Of a stretch of 64,000 bases of DNA, positions 5,718-52,696 are shown piece by piece. The translations under genes were made by a program, and so were the position numbers. Each line of letters begins with the position of its first letter. The stretch's first letter is position 1. The stretch covers positions 1-64,000 of the forward strand of contig LADR01000020.1 in NCBI GenBank assembly GCA_000961655.1. Direction: 5' to 3'. Under the pieces are notes generated by a model that was not told the DNA's origin, searched no databases, and saw only the letters and a program-made list of their open reading frames with translations. Origin of the DNA: Desulfatitalea sp. BRH_c12. GTDB lineage: Bacteria; Desulfobacterota; Desulfobacteria; Desulfobacterales; Desulfosarcinaceae.

Positions 5718-8700
5718 TCAGTACCTCAGATTTTCGAGCCTTGCGAGCAGCAGCGCTTCGGCTTCGTTGTCGGTCAAATCATCAATAGCGACACGATCTT
5801 CTTTGGCTTGGCCCTCTTCCACGACCACCGTCGCGGTTGTTGCGGCGGGCGCACACGCCGTTGCGGGCGCCGGGTGGACGACGGTCTCGATGAGGTGGTC
5901 GACCAGGGACACCACCGTGGGATACTTGAAAATCAGGGTCGCGGGCAGGGTACAGGCAAACACCTTCTGCAGACGATTCCTCAGTTCCATGGAGGTCAGC
6001 GAATCCATCCCCATTTGAAAAAAGCCTTGCCGCAGATTGATGGCCGCCGTGGGCAGACTCAGAACACTGGCGACCATGGACGCGATATAGGCCCTGAGCA
6101 GATCCTGGTGGTGCTCGCGCGGCGCCGCTTGCAACGTGTCGTAAATGCTTTCGCACGACGCCGGCCGGTCCGCTGGGTGCTGCGGGATGTGATCGAGAAA
6201 GTCCGGCAGCGTGTCCGTCTGCTGCCCGAAGAAACATGGCCAATCCATGGCCATTGCCGTCACCTGCGGGTCGGTTGTGCCGAGTAGCCGGTGGAAAACG
6301 GATAGGGCCGTCGCCGGCGCGAGCAAGCCGAATCCTTGCGCGGCCCACTGGGTTTCACGGCGTTTGCCGACAGCCGCGGCCATGCCTGTCCCCGCCCATG
6401 GCCCCCAGCTGATGCTCAGGCCCGGCAATCCGATGAGGCGGCGGTAGTGCGCCAGCGCATCCAGGAAGGCGTTGGCAGCCACATAGTTTCCGAGGCCGGA
6501 CGAACAGACAAAAGAGGTGGCCGAAGAGAACAGCATGAAGACATCGAGCGGGATCTCGCGGGTCGCTGCATGCAGGTTCCAGGCGCCCGCGACTTTGGCG
6601 GCAAACACCTTTTTAAAAAATTCGCCCGCATGATCCGCCAGCAGTCTGTCCTCGAAAACACCGGCGGCGTGAACGACGCCTTTCAACGGCATGTCTGATG
6701 CCGCAATGGCCTTCAAGACGGCATGCACATCACTTTTCCGGGACACGTCGGCTTGGGCAACGACGATACGGGCGCCGGCCTGTTGCATTTGGCGGATCGC
6801 CGCCGCCGGCGGGCTGCCCTCGGCCGGTTGCCCGCTGCGGCTGACCAGAACGAGCTGTCCGGCACCGTGCGCGACCAGGTGCGCCGCGATTTCAAGACCC
6901 GTTCCGCCCAGGCCGCCGCTGATCAGGTAGGTGCCGTCCGAACGAATGACAGCGGTATCACGATCAGGCCCCGCATCGCTTTGGAAGGGCACCAGGCGCG
7001 CCGCATAGCGCGCTTTGCCGCGCAGGGCGATCCGATCCGCCGGCTGGCCTTGCAGGATCTCTTCGAGAAGGGAGGCCACACAATCCGCCCCCCGATCGAT
7101 ATCGACCCGAACGCAGGTCAGTTCAGGATGTTCGACGGCGATCACCTGGGCCATGCCCCACAGGGGCGCCTGGACAAGGCCCGATAGAAGCCGTTCCGTG
7201 CCGTCCGCGCCCACAGCGTGGCGGGTCACCTGCCACAGGCCCGGCGGCGGCTCGGCATCCATCCGGATCAGAGCCTGCACCAGGTGCAGCATGCCCGTAC
7301 ACAGGCGCACGCTCTCCGTCGCCACGTCGCTTTCAGAGGGCTGCGGCGCATCGAGGCTCCAGAGGTGAAGGATCCCATGCAGGGCGGATTTTCCCTCGGA
7401 CGCAACGGCCCGGAGCAACCGCTGGAAATCGTCGCGCTCGGCCGGATTGACCGTATACGCCCCGTCCGATGTCCTGCTGAATCGCTCGCCTGGGAAAACC
7501 ATCGTCACGTGATCGCCACGGGCGCCCAGAAGACCGGACAACCGGGCACCGACCCCGTCCGCCTCGGGCCCGCCATACGACCCTTCCGCATCGGACGCGC
7601 TATCAGCCCCGCACGCATAGGACAGGCCATCAGACCCGTCCATACAGGACAGGCCATCAGACCCGTCCGTACAGGACAGGCCATCAGACCCGTCCGCACA
7701 GGACAGGCCATCAGAAAGGATCAGCCAGTGCCGCTGTGACGCAGCCGGGGTCTGTTTGGCTTCGGGCAATGTGCGGCCCAGAATCACGGCCTGCTCGAAG
7801 AGCATCCCGCCTTGCCCGGGCGTGATCGCCGCGGTTTCGGCAAACCCGCTGCTGTGCATCACGCTTTCCCAGGTAGCGACATCCATCAGCGGGTGCGCGG
7901 GCCTGAGATCATGGTCCGTAAACTTCCACCACCCGTCCAGAAGGCCGAAAATCATGTCCATCCAGCGCCGCCGGGCGATCCCCTCGAGCAGCATCAGCAT
8001 GCCGCCGGGCGCCAGCAGCTGGCCGGCGCGCTGGAGGGTATGCCGGATATCCGCTGTCGCATGGATCACGTTGGCCGCAATGATCACGTCGACCGTGTGG
8101 GGTCGATAGCCCTGCGACACGGGATCTTTTTCGATGTCGAGCAGTTGATAGCGCACAAAGGGATAGTTTGCGAAACGCTCCTTGGCCTGGCTCAGAAAAT
8201 GGGCCGAGACATCGGTGAACACGTAGTCCACCTGTTCGCCTTTGAGCAGCGGCAGGATCGCGGCGGTTGTCCCGCCGGTACCGGCGCCGATTTCAAGGAT
8301 GCGCAGTTTTCGGCCGCCGGCGTGATCCGCAAGGACCACCGATAGTGTGTGGGCGACCACCCGGTTCATCGCGCCGAAGGTCAGTGAGTCCTCGTACAGT
8401 TGGACCGCCATCGTCAGGTCCGCTTCGGGAAACACCAGGCCGATCGGGTCGCAAGCGCCCTGCAGAACCCCGATAAGTCCCGCACCGCAGCGGCCGAGCA
8501 GGGCCAACTCGGCTTCGGCTTCAGGATGCGTTGCAACAAGTTGCCGCCACTGCTCACCGGCACTTTGCGCCCGCAACGATTGGGCCACGGTCCAGCCTTG
8601 CGCGTCGCGGTAAAGAATCCCCTCTTCGGCCAATATTCCCAGAAGCCTGCCGAGCAATGGGCGGTAAGCCTCGGCCACACGCAACGCGCCGGCAGCATCA

Positions 8701-39831: not shown

Positions 39832-40467
39832 TCAGATATTCAGAAAATCGAGAATTTGACCCAGGTTCTGGATATGCACATCCGCTTTCAGATCGGGGTT
39901 GGCGTAGGCGAAAAAGGGGACTTGGGCCTGCTGGGCTGCCAGTTCGTCCAATTCGGAATCGCCGATGAAGATCATTTCGCCGGGAGCGAGACTGAAGTGG
40001 GACAGCAGGGTCAACAGCTGATCCGGATGGGGTTTGGGGAAACGCACATCACACGCGGTGATGACCTTGTCGAAGAGCCCTGTCAGGTTGTGATCCTCGA
40101 GCACCCGCGCCATGGTATCAGTGCGGTTGGTGGCTATGGCTGTTTTGTACTGCGGCCGCAGACGGGCCAGCACGTCGACCAGGAACGGCTCTATTTCCAT
40201 GTGGCGGATAAAGGGCATGTAGCTCATTTCACGCCTGAAGGCCTGGGCCTCGGACAGCATGCGCGGATCTTCGAACAAGTAGACGATAGCTTCATCCACC
40301 GTATGCATGTGAACATACGCAAACTGTTGCGGGGTGATCTCCGGCAATCCGAAGTGCGTCAGGATATGGTTGTAATAGGCGCGGTTGGCATTGGAGGAGT
40401 CGAACATAACGCCGTCACAATCAAATGCAACAGCCTTGATAGTCTTTGCGGTGTGACCGGCCTTCAT
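39832..40467 (-). CDS. HAD-superfamily phosphatase (Gph-like)
   Basis: 211 residues. HAD motifs: FDCDGVMFDSS (nucleophile Asp and acid Asp), ATNRTDT (motif II Thr), KPHPDQ (motif III Lys) and FIGDSELDELAA (motif IV). The cap resembles phosphoglycolate phosphatase and beta-phosphoglucomutase. ATG 40467 has GAGG upstream; a TTG at 40482 is in frame and overlaps the DUF1573 stop. Adjacent to and probably co-transcribed with the DUF1573 gene. Substrate not defined. Confidence 0.87.
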   Translation of the reverse strand: MKAGHTAKTIKAVAFDCDGVMFDSSNANRAYYNHILTHFGLPEITPQQFAYVHMHTVDEAIVYLFEDPRMLSEAQAFRREMSYMPFIRHMEIEPFLVDVLARLRPQYKTAIATNRTDTMARVLEDHNLTGLFDKVITACDVRFPKPHPDQLLTLLSHFSLAPGEMIFIGDSELDELAAQQAQVPFFAYANPDLKADVHIQNLGQILDFLNI

Positions 40468-40478
40468 GTCGCCTCGGT

Positions 40479-41240
40479 TCAATGAGTTTCTCGATTCTCT
40501 TCGGTACGCCGGGCGGAAAGACGTCCGCTGACGGGAATGCCGATGGTGGGCTTTTCTTTCAGGTCGGTCGAAAGTTCGATGTAATCCCCGTAACTGCCGA
40601 CGGTTTCACTGGTACTGGTGACCGTCAGGAGGTAACCATCCTTCGCGGGCTTGTCTCCGAGCGGTTTTAATGCCACCTGGATATTGCTCCCGGTCGCGGC
40701 TTTGGCCGCCTTGATGGTAAAAGGATACCCCTCCTGGGGGATGATGCGCACTTGACTGGAAACCGGTTCTCCCAATCGCCCAACGAGCACTACGCGCTTC
40801 GGCGTAATCGTCGCGTAACCGGCAATCTCGCCCTTGACCACAAGATCCACCCGGGGCTGCCGGGGATCATTGGTATGCACCTTGAAATGCTTGACAAGGC
40901 TTTGGCCGCCGCGACCCGCCGTAGTCACCACCACACTGATTTTATCCTTGCCGCCGGCAGGGATTTGGCCCGGGTTCGAGGCCACAGAGCAGCCTCAATC
41001 CGTTTGTATTCTGAGAATGCTCAACGGAGCGTCCCCACGATTTTCAACGATGAAATCGTGTTTGATCTCCTGGCCTTCTATAATCGTCTGAAATTCATAA
41101 CTGGGCTGCGGAAATACCGCCTTGGGCGAGTCGGCAGCCCCATCAGGCGCACCAGCCGCATAGGCCGTCGTTGCCATCCAGGCGATGATCATACCTGCCA
41201 TAACGATACCACACATTGTATGTCGCAAAGCTGTTCGCAT
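40479..41240 (-). CDS. Probable selenoprotein of the DUF1573 family, secreted
   Basis: 253 residues if the in-frame TGA at 40997-40995 is read as selenocysteine (residue 82). A signal peptide (MRTALRHTM...TTAYA, cleaved after Ala) leads into an Ig-like DUF1573 domain; the conserved motif, normally T-x-C-G-C, reads T-D-U-G-C here, then SVASNPGQIPAGGKDKISV, which is ordinary DUF1573 sequence in the same frame. A second Ig-like domain follows (about 125-245). Eleven bases after the TGA a hairpin TGGCC/GGCCA (40984-40966, nine-base loop) sits where a bacterial SECIS is expected. ATG 41240 has GGAG. If TGA is a stop it would split the gene into two fragments. Confidence 0.8.
40966..40997 (-). promoter_or_regulatory. 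Candidate selenocysteine codon with SECIS-like hairpin
   Basis: TGA codon at 40997-40995 and, 11-29 bases downstream, a five-base-pair stem (TGGCC with GGCCA) enclosing a nine-base loop. The loop lies 16-24 bases after the codon, within the range for bacterial SECIS elements. The stem is short and an alternative pairing (GAGGC with GCCTC) starts at the TGA itself; folding has not been computed. Confidence 0.45.
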
Positions 41241-41347
41241 GCAATTCTCCTGACTGTCTACGTTCAATATCGACCTTCTTTTATAGGCGCACGGCCGCGG
41301 GATGTCAAGGTAGCGGAAGCAGATGCGGCCATCCACGCATCCGCGAA

Positions 41348-41544: not shown

Positions 41545-44010
41545 TTACATCAAATACACCGGATCGACATCCACGGTGACGCTCACGTCGCCTTTGCCGG
41601 CCATGGGCTGCGGACCAAACAAAAGTTGGCGCACGAAGCCGTGAAGGCGGGCAACCGGGGTGCCTTTGATCAGCAATTGCCATCGGTAACGATCGGCAAT
41701 GCGGTGCAGGGGCGATGCGATCGGGCCCAGCAGGGTCAAGCAAGCATAATCGGGGTGACGTTGCATGATTGTACGCGACACTTCTTCCATGCGCAGGGCG
41801 TAGGCGGCCACATTTTTTTCGTTCCGTCCGCTGATGCGGATCTGGATCATGCGCGTAAACGGCGGATAATCCAGCGCTTTACGAAACGCGATCTCCTGGC
41901 GGTAAAAAGCATCGTAATCCTGTTCCCGGGCACTGGCGATGCTGAAATGCAGCGGGTTGAACGTTTGCAAAATGGCACGCCCAGGAGCGTTTCCCCTGCC
42001 GGCACGCCCGGCCACTTGGGCCAGGATCTGAAAAGTGCGCTCGCCAGCCCGGAAATCAGGCAAACTGAGCGACAGATCGGCGCAAATGATGCCCACCAGG
42101 GTGATATAGGGAAAATCATGGCCTTTGGCCACCATTTGGGTCCCCACCAGGACATCGATCTTACGGTCGCGCAGGTCTTTGAGAATTTTTAACAACGCCC
42201 CCTTGCGGCGCGTGCTGTCCCGATCCATGCGACTGACACTGGCCGTCGGGAAGAGCTTGCGGATATAGTCTTCCAGGCGTTCGGTGCCGAGCCCCAACCT
42301 TTTGATACGATTCGATCCGCATGCGCTGCAGCGGGTCGCGGCAGCGCGGCTGAAACCGCAGTAGTGGCATTGATAGGCGTTGATCTTCTGGTGATAGGTC
42401 AAAGAGATATCGCAGTGATCACAGCGCACGACCTGTCCGCAGGCGCCGCAAACCAGCGTGTTGGAAAACCCGCGGCGGTTCAGGAAAAGCAGCACCTGCT
42501 CCTTGCGCGCCAAAGTTTCTCCAATTGCCTCAATCAGGGCCGGTGTCAGATAACGGCGCATCCCCTGCTCTTCGCGAACGGCCGTGAGATCCTGGATTAG
42601 GATTTCGGGCAAGGCTCTTTGGTCGACCCGTTCGAACAAGTTGATTTGCTGAAATTTGCCCGTCGCTGCATTATAAGCGGACTGCAGCGAGGGTGTGGCC
42701 GAGCCGAGAACGGCCACCGCACCTTGCTGACTGGCACGCACGACCGCCAGATCCCGCGCATTGTAGTGCAGCATACCTTCCTGTTTGTAGGAATCATCGT
42801 GCTCTTCATCCACGATGATCACGCCCAGCCGGACAAAAGGCGCGAAAATGGCCGAACGTGCGCCGATGGCAATCGTAGCCTCGCCTCGCCGAATACGCTG
42901 CCACTGGTCAAATCGTTCACCGTTAGACAAGCCGCTGTGCAACAAAGCGATGCATTCACCAAAACGGGCCCGAAAAGCCCGCACAGTCTGCGTCACCAGA
43001 GCGATTTCGGGAACCAGAACGAGAACGGCGAGCCCCTGGCTCAAGGCCAAAGCGGCAAGATGCAGATAGATTTCTGTTTTTCCGGAACCGGTCACCCCGG
43101 ACAGCAGGAAAGTCCGGTAGCCTTTGCCGAGCGCCGCGCCCATGGTATCGATCGCCGCGTGCTGCTCAGCCGTCAACACAGGCGGACGGTCGGGGAGTAT
43201 GGGCGCGTCCAAAGGGTCGCGGTAGACTTCGCGTTGCTCTATGAGCACCTGTTGGTCGCGGGCCATGGCGCGTACCACTTGCGCGGCAGTGGGAATTTTG
43301 GATTTGAGTTCTTCAATGGACAGGGCCCCAGCAACACGCAACACATCTAAAATCGCCTGGCGTACCGGCGACAGGTCAGACTGGATGTCGCTGTAGGGAA
43401 CGGACCGCACATAACGGGTCAGCTTGGGCCGCGTCCGGCCGCCGGTCAGCGCCTGCTCTCGAACGACCCAACCCTTGCGCTCCCAAAGGCTGAGCGCAGA
43501 CGGGGAAAAAGAGGTGCCCGCCGGTTCCCGCAGTGCGGCCATTCGGCACGGCCCCCGTGCCAGTTTTTCAAAGACGGCCTGCTCCCAGGAGGACAGATCT
43601 CCGCTCGCCATGACCAGACGCCCGGATTCGGTCAGCAGGTAATGCGTCAGCTCAGCCACATTGATGCCGCCGGGCAGAGCCGTTTGCATCACTTCGCCCA
43701 AGGGATGGATGTAGTACTCGGCGATCCACTCAAAAAAGGGCAACATCTGCGGCGGGAACAGCGGCTGATCATCCATGACGGCCACAATGGCCTTCAACGT
43801 TGCATCGGGGCGCGCACAATCGGTTTTGAGAATATATCCGGTCACCCGCCGCCGGCCAAAAGGCACCAGAACCCGCTTGCCGATGGCGATCTCGGGCCAA
43901 AACGCCGGCGGCACCTGGTAGGTGAAACGCGTAGGCACCGGAAGCGCGACAACCACTTCGATCAGATTGGATGGGGGGGGATGGTTTGTTGAATGCATTA
44001 CCCTGGGCAT
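41545..44010 (-). CDS. priA: Primosomal replication protein N' (PriA helicase)
   Basis: 821 residues. Restarts stalled replication forks by loading DnaB. Features: N-terminal 3'-end-binding domain (VVVALPVPTRFTYQVP), helicase Walker A GVTGSGKTE, DEEH box in VDEEHDDSYKQ, GSATPS, a zinc-binding Cys cluster (CGACGQVVRCDHC ... CHYCG ... CSACG, about 535-575) and GRAGRG helicase motif VI. Length is usual (about 730-830). Start is ATG 44010 or ATG 43998; the second has AGGG nearer. Divergent from the small gene at 44158. Confidence 0.95.
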   Translation of the reverse strand: MPRVMHSTNHPPPSNLIEVVVALPVPTRFTYQVPPAFWPEIAIGKRVLVPFGRRRVTGYILKTDCARPDATLKAIVAVMDDQPLFPPQMLPFFEWIAEYYIHPLGEVMQTALPGGINVAELTHYLLTESGRLVMASGDLSSWEQAVFEKLARGPCRMAALREPAGTSFSPSALSLWERKGWVVREQALTGGRTRPKLTRYVRSVPYSDIQSDLSPVRQAILDVLRVAGALSIEELKSKIPTAAQVVRAMARDQQVLIEQREVYRDPLDAPILPDRPPVLTAEQHAAIDTMGAALGKGYRTFLLSGVTGSGKTEIYLHLAALALSQGLAVLVLVPEIALVTQTVRAFRARFGECIALLHSGLSNGERFDQWQRIRRGEATIAIGARSAIFAPFVRLGVIIVDEEHDDSYKQEGMLHYNARDLAVVRASQQGAVAVLGSATPSLQSAYNAATGKFQQINLFERVDQRALPEILIQDLTAVREEQGMRRYLTPALIEAIGETLARKEQVLLFLNRRGFSNTLVCGACGQVVRCDHCDISLTYHQKINAYQCHYCGFSRAAATRCSACGSNRIKRLGLGTERLEDYIRKLFPTASVSRMDRDSTRRKGALLKILKDLRDRKIDVLVGTQMVAKGHDFPYITLVGIICADLSLSLPDFRAGERTFQILAQVAGRAGRGNAPGRAILQTFNPLHFSIASAREQDYDAFYRQEIAFRKALDYPPFTRMIQIRISGRNEKNVAAYALRMEEVSRTIMQRHPDYACLTLLGPIASPLHRIADRYRWQLLIKGTPVARLHGFVRQLLFGPQPMAGKGDVSVTVDVDPVYLM

Positions 44011-50779: not shown

Positions 50780-52696
50780 GTGAAGCAAATCATCTTAGGC
50801 ACCGCCGGCCACATCGATCATGGCAAGACAAGCCTGATCAAAGCTCTGACCGGCATCAACACCGATCGCCTCAAAGAGGAACAGGTGCGCGGCATCACCA
50901 TCGAGTTGGGTTTTGCGCATTTTGATCTGCCCAGCGGCCAGCGTCTGGGCGTCGTGGATGTTCCCGGACACGAAAAATTCGTTAAAAACATGGTCGCCGG
51001 CGCCACCGGCATCGACCTGGTGGCCCTCGTCATTGCCGCCGATGAAGGCATTATGCCGCAAACCCGCGAGCACATGGAAATCTGCACGCTCCTGGGAATA
51101 CGCTACGGTGTTGTGGCCATGACCAAGATAGATATGGTCGACGAAGAATGGCTTGCCCTGGTGCAAGAGGAAATCGAACAGTTCACCCGGGGCACTTTTC
51201 TCGAAGACGCACCGATCGTGCCGGTCTCCGCGGCCACCGGTCAGGGTCTGGTGGAACTCACGCAAATTCTGGACCGCATCTGCGCCGATATTCCCGCCCG
51301 GACATCCTCCGGACTGTTCCGCTTGCCGGTCGATCGGGTTTTTTCGATGAAAGGTTTCGGCACCGTGATCACCGGCACCCTGGTTTCAGGCAAAGTGACG
51401 GTCGGCGAGCGGGTCATGCTGTATCCTTCGGGGGTCACTTCCAAAGTCAGGGGACTCCAGGTTCACAATCAAAGTGTCGAATCGGCCGAAGCGGGTATGC
51501 GAACGGCGATCAATTTTCAAGGTCTGGATAAAAGCGGCGTGAATCGCGGCGATGTCATCGCACTGCCGGATACGCTGGTGCCCAGTTACATGATCGATGT
51601 CTCCCTGCACTACCTGTCCAGCAATCCCAGAGTGCTCAAAAACAGAACACGCGTTCGCTTCCATGCCGGTACCAGTGAGATTACCGGGGTGGTCATCCTG
51701 CTGGATCGCGAGGAGTTGGCTCCAGGAGAGCATGTCAAAGCCCAATTGAGACTTGACACGCCGGTCACCCTGATCAAGGACGACCGCTATGTATTGCGCA
51801 GCTATTCACCCGTGCGTACGGTGGGCGGCGGACAGGTTCTCAATCCTATTCCCCCCAAGCACAAGCGCAACAAACCCGACATTATCGCGCGGTTGACGAC
51901 GCTGGCCGATGCACCGCCCGAGCAAGTGGTCGCGCAGCATATTCAAGACGCCGGTTTCGGCGCCTGTTCGTTCAACGATCTTTTGATCATGGCCAATCTA
52001 CCGGAAAAGCAACTCGACCGCGTCCTGCAAACAATGATGACGCAAAAAACAGCCATCCAGATCGACCGGGAGAAAAAGCGCTACATTCACCAGAGTACAT
52101 TGCTCGACCTGCAGCAAGCCGTGCGCCTGCAGTTGTCAACGTATCACCAGAAGCATCCGCTCAAGTCGGGCATGCCCAAGGAAGAGTTGAAATCAAGGCT
52201 GCCCTCCAGCGTGGACATCAAACTGTTCATGTTGGTTTTACAGCAAATGGGCAAAACGGAAGCGATCACTGTCGAAGAGGATATCGTGCGCCTCTCCGCG
52301 CATCGTGTGGCGCTGGGAGTGGATCAACGCGCGTTGCGTGAAAACATTCTGAATGCTTACGCAAAAGGGGGCTTGACCCCACCCTACTTCAAGGACCTTT
52401 GCCAGGAGTGGAACACGCCCGTCGATCAGGCGCGCCAGGTATTAGCGCTGCTTGTCGATGAAGGTCTCATGCTCAAGATAAAAGAAGACCTCTACTATCA
52501 TCATCAACCCATCGCGGAATTGAAGCAAAAACTGATTGCGTATCTGACAACGCACGAGGAGATCTCCACGCCGCAATTCAAGGATATGACTGGAGCTTCG
52601 CGAAAATTCGTGATACCTTTGATTGAATTTTTCGATGGCATACAGTTGACCATTCGCATAGGCGACATGCGTAAACTGCGCAAACGTCCAACGTAA
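50780..52696 (+). CDS. selB: Selenocysteine-specific elongation factor SelB
   Basis: 638 residues. GTPase domain: [17 protein letters not shown] (P-loop), [31 protein letters not shown] (G3) and TKIDMVD (G4). Domains 2-3 follow ([17 protein letters not shown]), and the C-terminal winged helices (about 370-638) that bind the SECIS hairpin are complete. GTG 50780 is the start. SelB delivers Sec-tRNA to UGA codons, so this organism decodes UGA as selenocysteine; selA, selC and selD are not in the window. It supports the TGA reading in the DUF1573 gene. Confidence 0.96.

Follow-up and report, generated by a model that had tools for sequence, protein, structure and literature searches.

A DUF1573 gene with an in-frame TGA in Desulfatitalea sp. 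BRH_c12 probably encodes an ordinary member of the known OS_HP2 selenoprotein family

Our analysis of the window, a stretch of 64,000 nucleotides from contig LADR01000020.1 of Desulfatitalea sp. BRH_c12, identifies its DUF1573 gene with an internal TGA as, in all probability (roughly 0.9, judged from sequence comparisons), a real, working gene that belongs to the already known OS_HP2/DUF1573 selenoprotein family and is ordinary among its members; it comes from a Desulfatitalea-like lineage of Desulfobacterales. The window protein scores 121.7 bits against the family model NF041425 (OS_HP2_seleno; curated cut-off 100) and 115.9 bits in the genome search, and it carries Sec as the first residue of the x-G-C motif of DUF1573, the place at which OS_HP2 proteins have Sec or Cys. 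In addition, two reviews, PMC9312934 and PMC13188914, list a 'DUF1573 domain-containing protein, UGC' among selenoproteins and credit it to Zhang & Gladyshev 2007 and the Olavius algarvensis Delta 1 symbiont. Although the name OS_HP2 is absent from these entries, PF07610 (DUF1573) and NF041425 match the same residues of the window protein, so we take the DUF1573 entry and OS_HP2 to be the same family. A homologue with the motif T-G-U-G-C is indeed found in an Olavius Delta 1 record (L060). Hence, the preliminary description of this gene as a probable new selenoprotein type is refuted. That it might nevertheless be an undescribed type draws on the lack of any function for a DUF1573/OS_HP2 selenoprotein in those literature passages on DUF1573 that were available, and given a model match over cut-off and two existing listings with UGC we consider this to have next to no chance of being right. 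Compared to the OS_HP2 family, the window gene is alike in model match, DUF1573 domain and U-G-C placement and shows no substantial difference, its own traits being the motif T-D-U-G-C-S, shared by near relatives, and a hairpin stem slid by one base. Another paper has DUF1573 as one entry of a table on the response to iron.

Table 1. Features of the window discussed in the text
Feature	Position	Strand	Remarks
OS_HP2/DUF1573 selenoprotein gene	40479..41240	minus	253 residues, Sec82; two Ig-like domains predicted after a start that by eye resembles a signal peptide
Sec codon (TGA), opening the U-G-C motif	40995..40997	minus	Cys in 11/12 non-TGA loci
SECIS-like hairpin UGGCCU-CGAACCC-GGGCCA	40966..40984	minus	16 nt from TGA to apical loop
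HAD-like hydrolase gene, directly downstream	39832..40482	minus	scores below named HAD cut-offs; relatives typed by Pfam
priA, upstream of OS_HP2 gene	41545..44010	minus	same strand; homologues on same side in many loci
selB, Sec-specific elongation factor	50780..52696	plus	TIGR00475, 379.9 bits, cut-off 242.25

With TGA translated as U, the reading frame contains a single internal TGA and closes with another one as its stop (Table 1), and an AGGAG (41247-41251) lies 6 nt 5' of the ATG. PF07610 matches residues 43-139 with 56.2 bits (cut-off 26.1), which means that the domain spans the TGA. A scan of the window for further in-frame TGA genes returned none, at a threshold that the OS_HP2 gene itself does not reach.

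The TGA recurs at the same place in relatives. A scan of genomes with an 18-row alignment gave 81 confirmed loci, of which we took the 80 best and judged the TGA column from their printed motifs: 68/80 carry one TGA within the domain, at the motif column, and among the 12 that do not (L053, L067, L075, L099, L105, L110, L115, L117-L120, L122), 11 have Cys there, once as C-T-C (L120), while L110 is a copy minus the Sec/Cys position. In the Cys (C-G-C) DUF1573 proteins, domain and motif position are as in the window protein, with Cys in place of Sec. By the names of the relatives, the closest of the 80 loci belongs to Desulfatitalea sp. Site_C24 (L043; 55% over 212 columns). Within the genus, a copy with one TGA occurs in 11/11 genomes (3/15 matches are without TGA), and independent assemblies show the identical codon, which we take in place of resequencing. 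The family is matched in 345/389 genomes sampled from the class (320 over cut-off), and the 150 best class matches listed contain, by hand count, exactly one TGA in 138 cases and none in 12; in a sample from the phylum, 161/395 genomes match, 45 of them over cut-off. Some genomes hold large expansions of the family (G156, G241 and G386 with 12, 9 and 10 matches, respectively), and single copies deviate in motif, such as U-Q-C in L081 and C-N-C in a same-genus paralogue (L131) that has a weak fold only.

Codons beyond the TGA evolve as protein codons do. Between the window gene and seven same-genus Sec copies of its type (L127, L129, L130, L132-L135; L130 and L133 print alike, and L129 looks like the same gene as the window's), dN is 0.30-0.44 and dS 1.06-1.46, which results in a dN/dS of 0.24-0.32, a rough estimate given dS values above 1; against L123-L126, copies from the same genus that are less closely related, dN rises to 0.67-0.80. 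On these rates, purifying selection is acting on the protein codons past the TGA. This bears on the option that the UGA is a true stop, be it in a pseudogene, in a gene for a truncated product of 81 residues or through an assembly error, for which the stop codon itself is the sole support. Since the identical TGA is found across independent assemblies, selection continues past it, the genome encodes the Sec machinery and the hairpin is conserved, we regard a true stop as very improbable. Decay or sequencing error was likewise considered and is ruled out by TGA conservation across loci and genus together with selection beyond the codon.

SelB, loaded with Sec-tRNA, binds the SECIS hairpin and Sec is inserted at UGA. 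The genome encodes selA, selB (within the window), selD and a tRNA-Sec with anticodon tca. Its selD (G000:C66:111700-112626, L041) contains one in-frame TGA and so appears to be a selenoprotein gene itself; a second, partial selD-like match lies on C49 (L042). As to the OS_HP2 gene, SelB and Sec-tRNA would bind the hairpin downstream of the UGA and Sec would be inserted there. What the preliminary description had said about the gene itself therefore stands up well: it is intact and unlikely to be decaying (dN/dS past the TGA, and a TGA common to independent assemblies), the TGA falls exactly on the first Cys of C-G-C, as the proposed alignment of DUF1573 homologues confirms, selB is nearby and the other sel genes that were to be looked for are present.

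The hairpin reported 11-29 bases past the codon is real as well. In the window it consists of 6 bp and a 7-nt loop, with a minimum free energy of -10.2 kcal/mol for the region, and it conforms to the four SECIS rules published in PMC13188914 (section 5). The same holds for 30/77 Sec rows and 5/11 Cys rows, so the published rules discriminate poorly here. Rfam gave no match in the window at gathering score and hence no SECIS support. The window's stem is one base off the family register, and when the window is folded from the UGA onward, the strongest structure pairs the UGA itself.

Evidence for the hairpin comes from the family. In an alignment of 72 of the 77 distinct Sec sequences (L090, L095, L097, L098 and L101 bear insertions, were left out and each have a stem in shifted register), 84.5% of cells are paired between stem columns 14-20 and 27-33 compared to 25.9-44.7% at slides of 1-3 columns, albeit with failures at the two outer pairs (27 and 30 of 70 rows). 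Stem cells changed on both sides number 44 (shuffled mean 16.5), and the covariation score of 0.310 (0.171 shuffled) is reached by 0/500 shuffles; the count of pairs with a double change (6) is a weaker signal, reached in 38/500. As codons constrain the hairpin region, we also permuted codons among rows that share the residue at a site, and none of 200 such sets reached the stem score, pairing or energy observed for the Sec rows. The 11 Cys rows exceed their own codon-permutation null too, though less strongly (stem score 10.5 vs 8.9, sd 0.5; energy -2.9 vs -2.3, sd 0.4). Measured against synonymous shuffles over bases 3-38, fold energy has a mean z of -1.59 in Sec rows (n=77) and 0.01 in a far-upstream control, whereas Cys genes, unlike the Sec genes, do not fall below their shuffles (0.20, n=11); the gap between Sec and Cys narrows over bases 9-44 (-1.40 vs -0.89). 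One Cys (TGC) homologue, L067 (domain 6001-6357), retains a strong, correctly spaced SECIS-like hairpin (GGCCTCG-TCGA-CGAGGCT) and may, to judge from its sequence, have exchanged Sec for Cys recently, which would make the hairpin a fossil SECIS.

An AlphaFold2 model of the full-length protein, computed from 8 rows with Sec replaced by Cys (mean pLDDT 84.3), consists of all-beta domains and places U-G-C at a turn between strands 73-80 and 84-88. Foldseek relates the first domain to OCRL1, 2qsv, HYDIN and other ASH/PapD-like domains (TM 0.5-0.7) and the full model to tandem Ig proteins at low TM. Searched against solved structures, the single protein sequence yields chance matches only (best E 0.09), while a profile finds 2qsv as its sole match (E 4.5e-4). 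PDB 2qsv, a Porphyromonas gingivalis protein of unknown function, shares with the HYDIN/ASH/PapD-like domains the Ig-like fold predicted for OS_HP2 and, in contrast to OS_HP2, is without C-G-C at the aligned place. A thioredoxin-fold redox selenoprotein, which we had considered as well, was rejected on the grounds that the predicted domains are all-beta and Ig-like.

Gene neighbourhoods were clustered for the 80 loci plus the window, 81 in total, from mechanically called ORFs and partly short contigs, so that neighbours can be missed in the counts that follow. In 48/81 loci, including the window, which has both, a homologue of priA, of HAD or of each shares the strand; the HAD homologue occurs in 44/80 loci and the priA-side neighbour cluster in 29, with the window among them. 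Two or more arsenic/redox clusters surround 12/81 loci, and the remaining 21/81 have neither context. Arsenic/redox clusters around OS_HP2 paralogues (L094, L096, L103, L107, L108, L111 and others) hold genes for ArsR, ACR3, an ArsP_1-type permease, ArsM-like proteins, thioredoxin, CcdA-like proteins, rhodanese and MauE. Representatives were typed by Pfam as thioredoxin, DsbD_TM, SBF (L107), rhodanese (L068), MauE (L096) and ArsP_1 (L083) or lie over NCBIfam cut-offs, as with ACR3 (L096, L111), ArsR/SmtB (L096, L108) and the arsenite methyltransferase PRK11873 (L108); other members were assigned by cluster alone. As for MauE, the assignment is based on Pfam in L096 only, on inspection by eye in L068, L094, L103 and L111 and on cluster alone in L112 and L113, and the cluster so labelled (c13) is mixed, its L083 member resembling a cation-efflux protein. 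L110 has thioredoxin and CcdA-like clusters without an arsenic gene. In the 81-row tree, whose bootstrap had not settled, 11/12 arsenic/redox-type rows form one group (99/95), with L068 left unplaced. Candidatus Desulfatibia vada (L045, L096) and isolate CSMAG_1163 (L055, L112) each carry one locus of either type, and because both types reside in one genome, they are paralogues. Genes adjoining these paralogues are similar, below cut-off, to TSO and arsenite-methyltransferase selenoproteins (NCBIfam TsoB, ArsM_DUF2284_UU), yet OS_HP2 belongs to neither and the window gene sits in a priA/HAD context.

What the protein may do has to be approached through this context. Judged by eye from its signal-like start, the product would be exported, and it is predicted from the model to fold as two Ig-like domains, in which Sec-Gly-Cys in the inter-strand turn would form a selenenylsulfide/dithiol redox centre, possibly supplied by a CcdA/DsbD-type thiol relay, and might act as a reductase or isomerase of disulfides or metalloid-thiol species. 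For a redox function of Sec-Gly-Cys as such, the chances seem to us evenly balanced. It is suggested by the 12/81 loci clustered with thioredoxin, DsbD_TM, rhodanese or MauE plus arsenic genes; priA and HAD, the neighbours of the window gene itself, have no bearing on it. Candidate reductant partners are thus encoded beside the paralogues and not beside the window gene, and the idea of a CcdA-type relay derives from the arsenic-type paralogues. The fuller proposal, in which OS_HP2 would be exported and work as a selenol oxidoreductase with an Ig fold, i.e. a disulfide reductase or isomerase of non-thioredoxin fold that uses Sec-Gly-Cys and a CcdA/MauE relay, with a priA-side form nearly universal in Desulfobacterales and a paralogue clade devoted to arsenic or organoarsenicals, is tentative and to our minds rather doubtful.

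Ig-fold copper proteins with a C-x-C motif, such as Cox11, exist, and the same selenoprotein may instead use Sec-Gly-Cys as a soft-metal or metalloid ligand, that is, a binding or chaperone site for As, Hg or Cu rather than a redox couple. ACR3, ArsR and ArsM-like genes next to one paralogue clade would fit with this, and metal binding is proposed for some other selenoproteins in PMC13188914. Against it, the very same clusters hold genes for thioredoxin, DsbD_TM, rhodanese and MauE, which point to thiol exchange, and the sole invariant His of the 18-row alignment is Tyr in L132, so that no fixed third ligand is evident. A ligand role is possible, in our view, yet on the unlikely side. The redox or metal function that the preliminary description had read into U-x-C may thus be called a fair guess, which the arsenic/CcdA/thioredoxin context of the paralogue clade favours.

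Our literature search, partial in its coverage, found the lineage-wide occurrence, hairpin covariation and arsenic/CcdA linkage of OS_HP2 nowhere in print, nor did it find a paper on MauE and CcdA with a selenoprotein or on an arsenic resistance operon with one. These are the useful additions made here: distribution, covariation of the hairpin and linkage to arsenic/CcdA genes. OS_HP2 matters mildly, in that a family so far present, in the literature covered, as a motif in a table turns up in 345/389 sampled genomes of the class, and the arsenic/CcdA/MauE context of one of its clades brings a redox or metalloid hypothesis within reach of testing.
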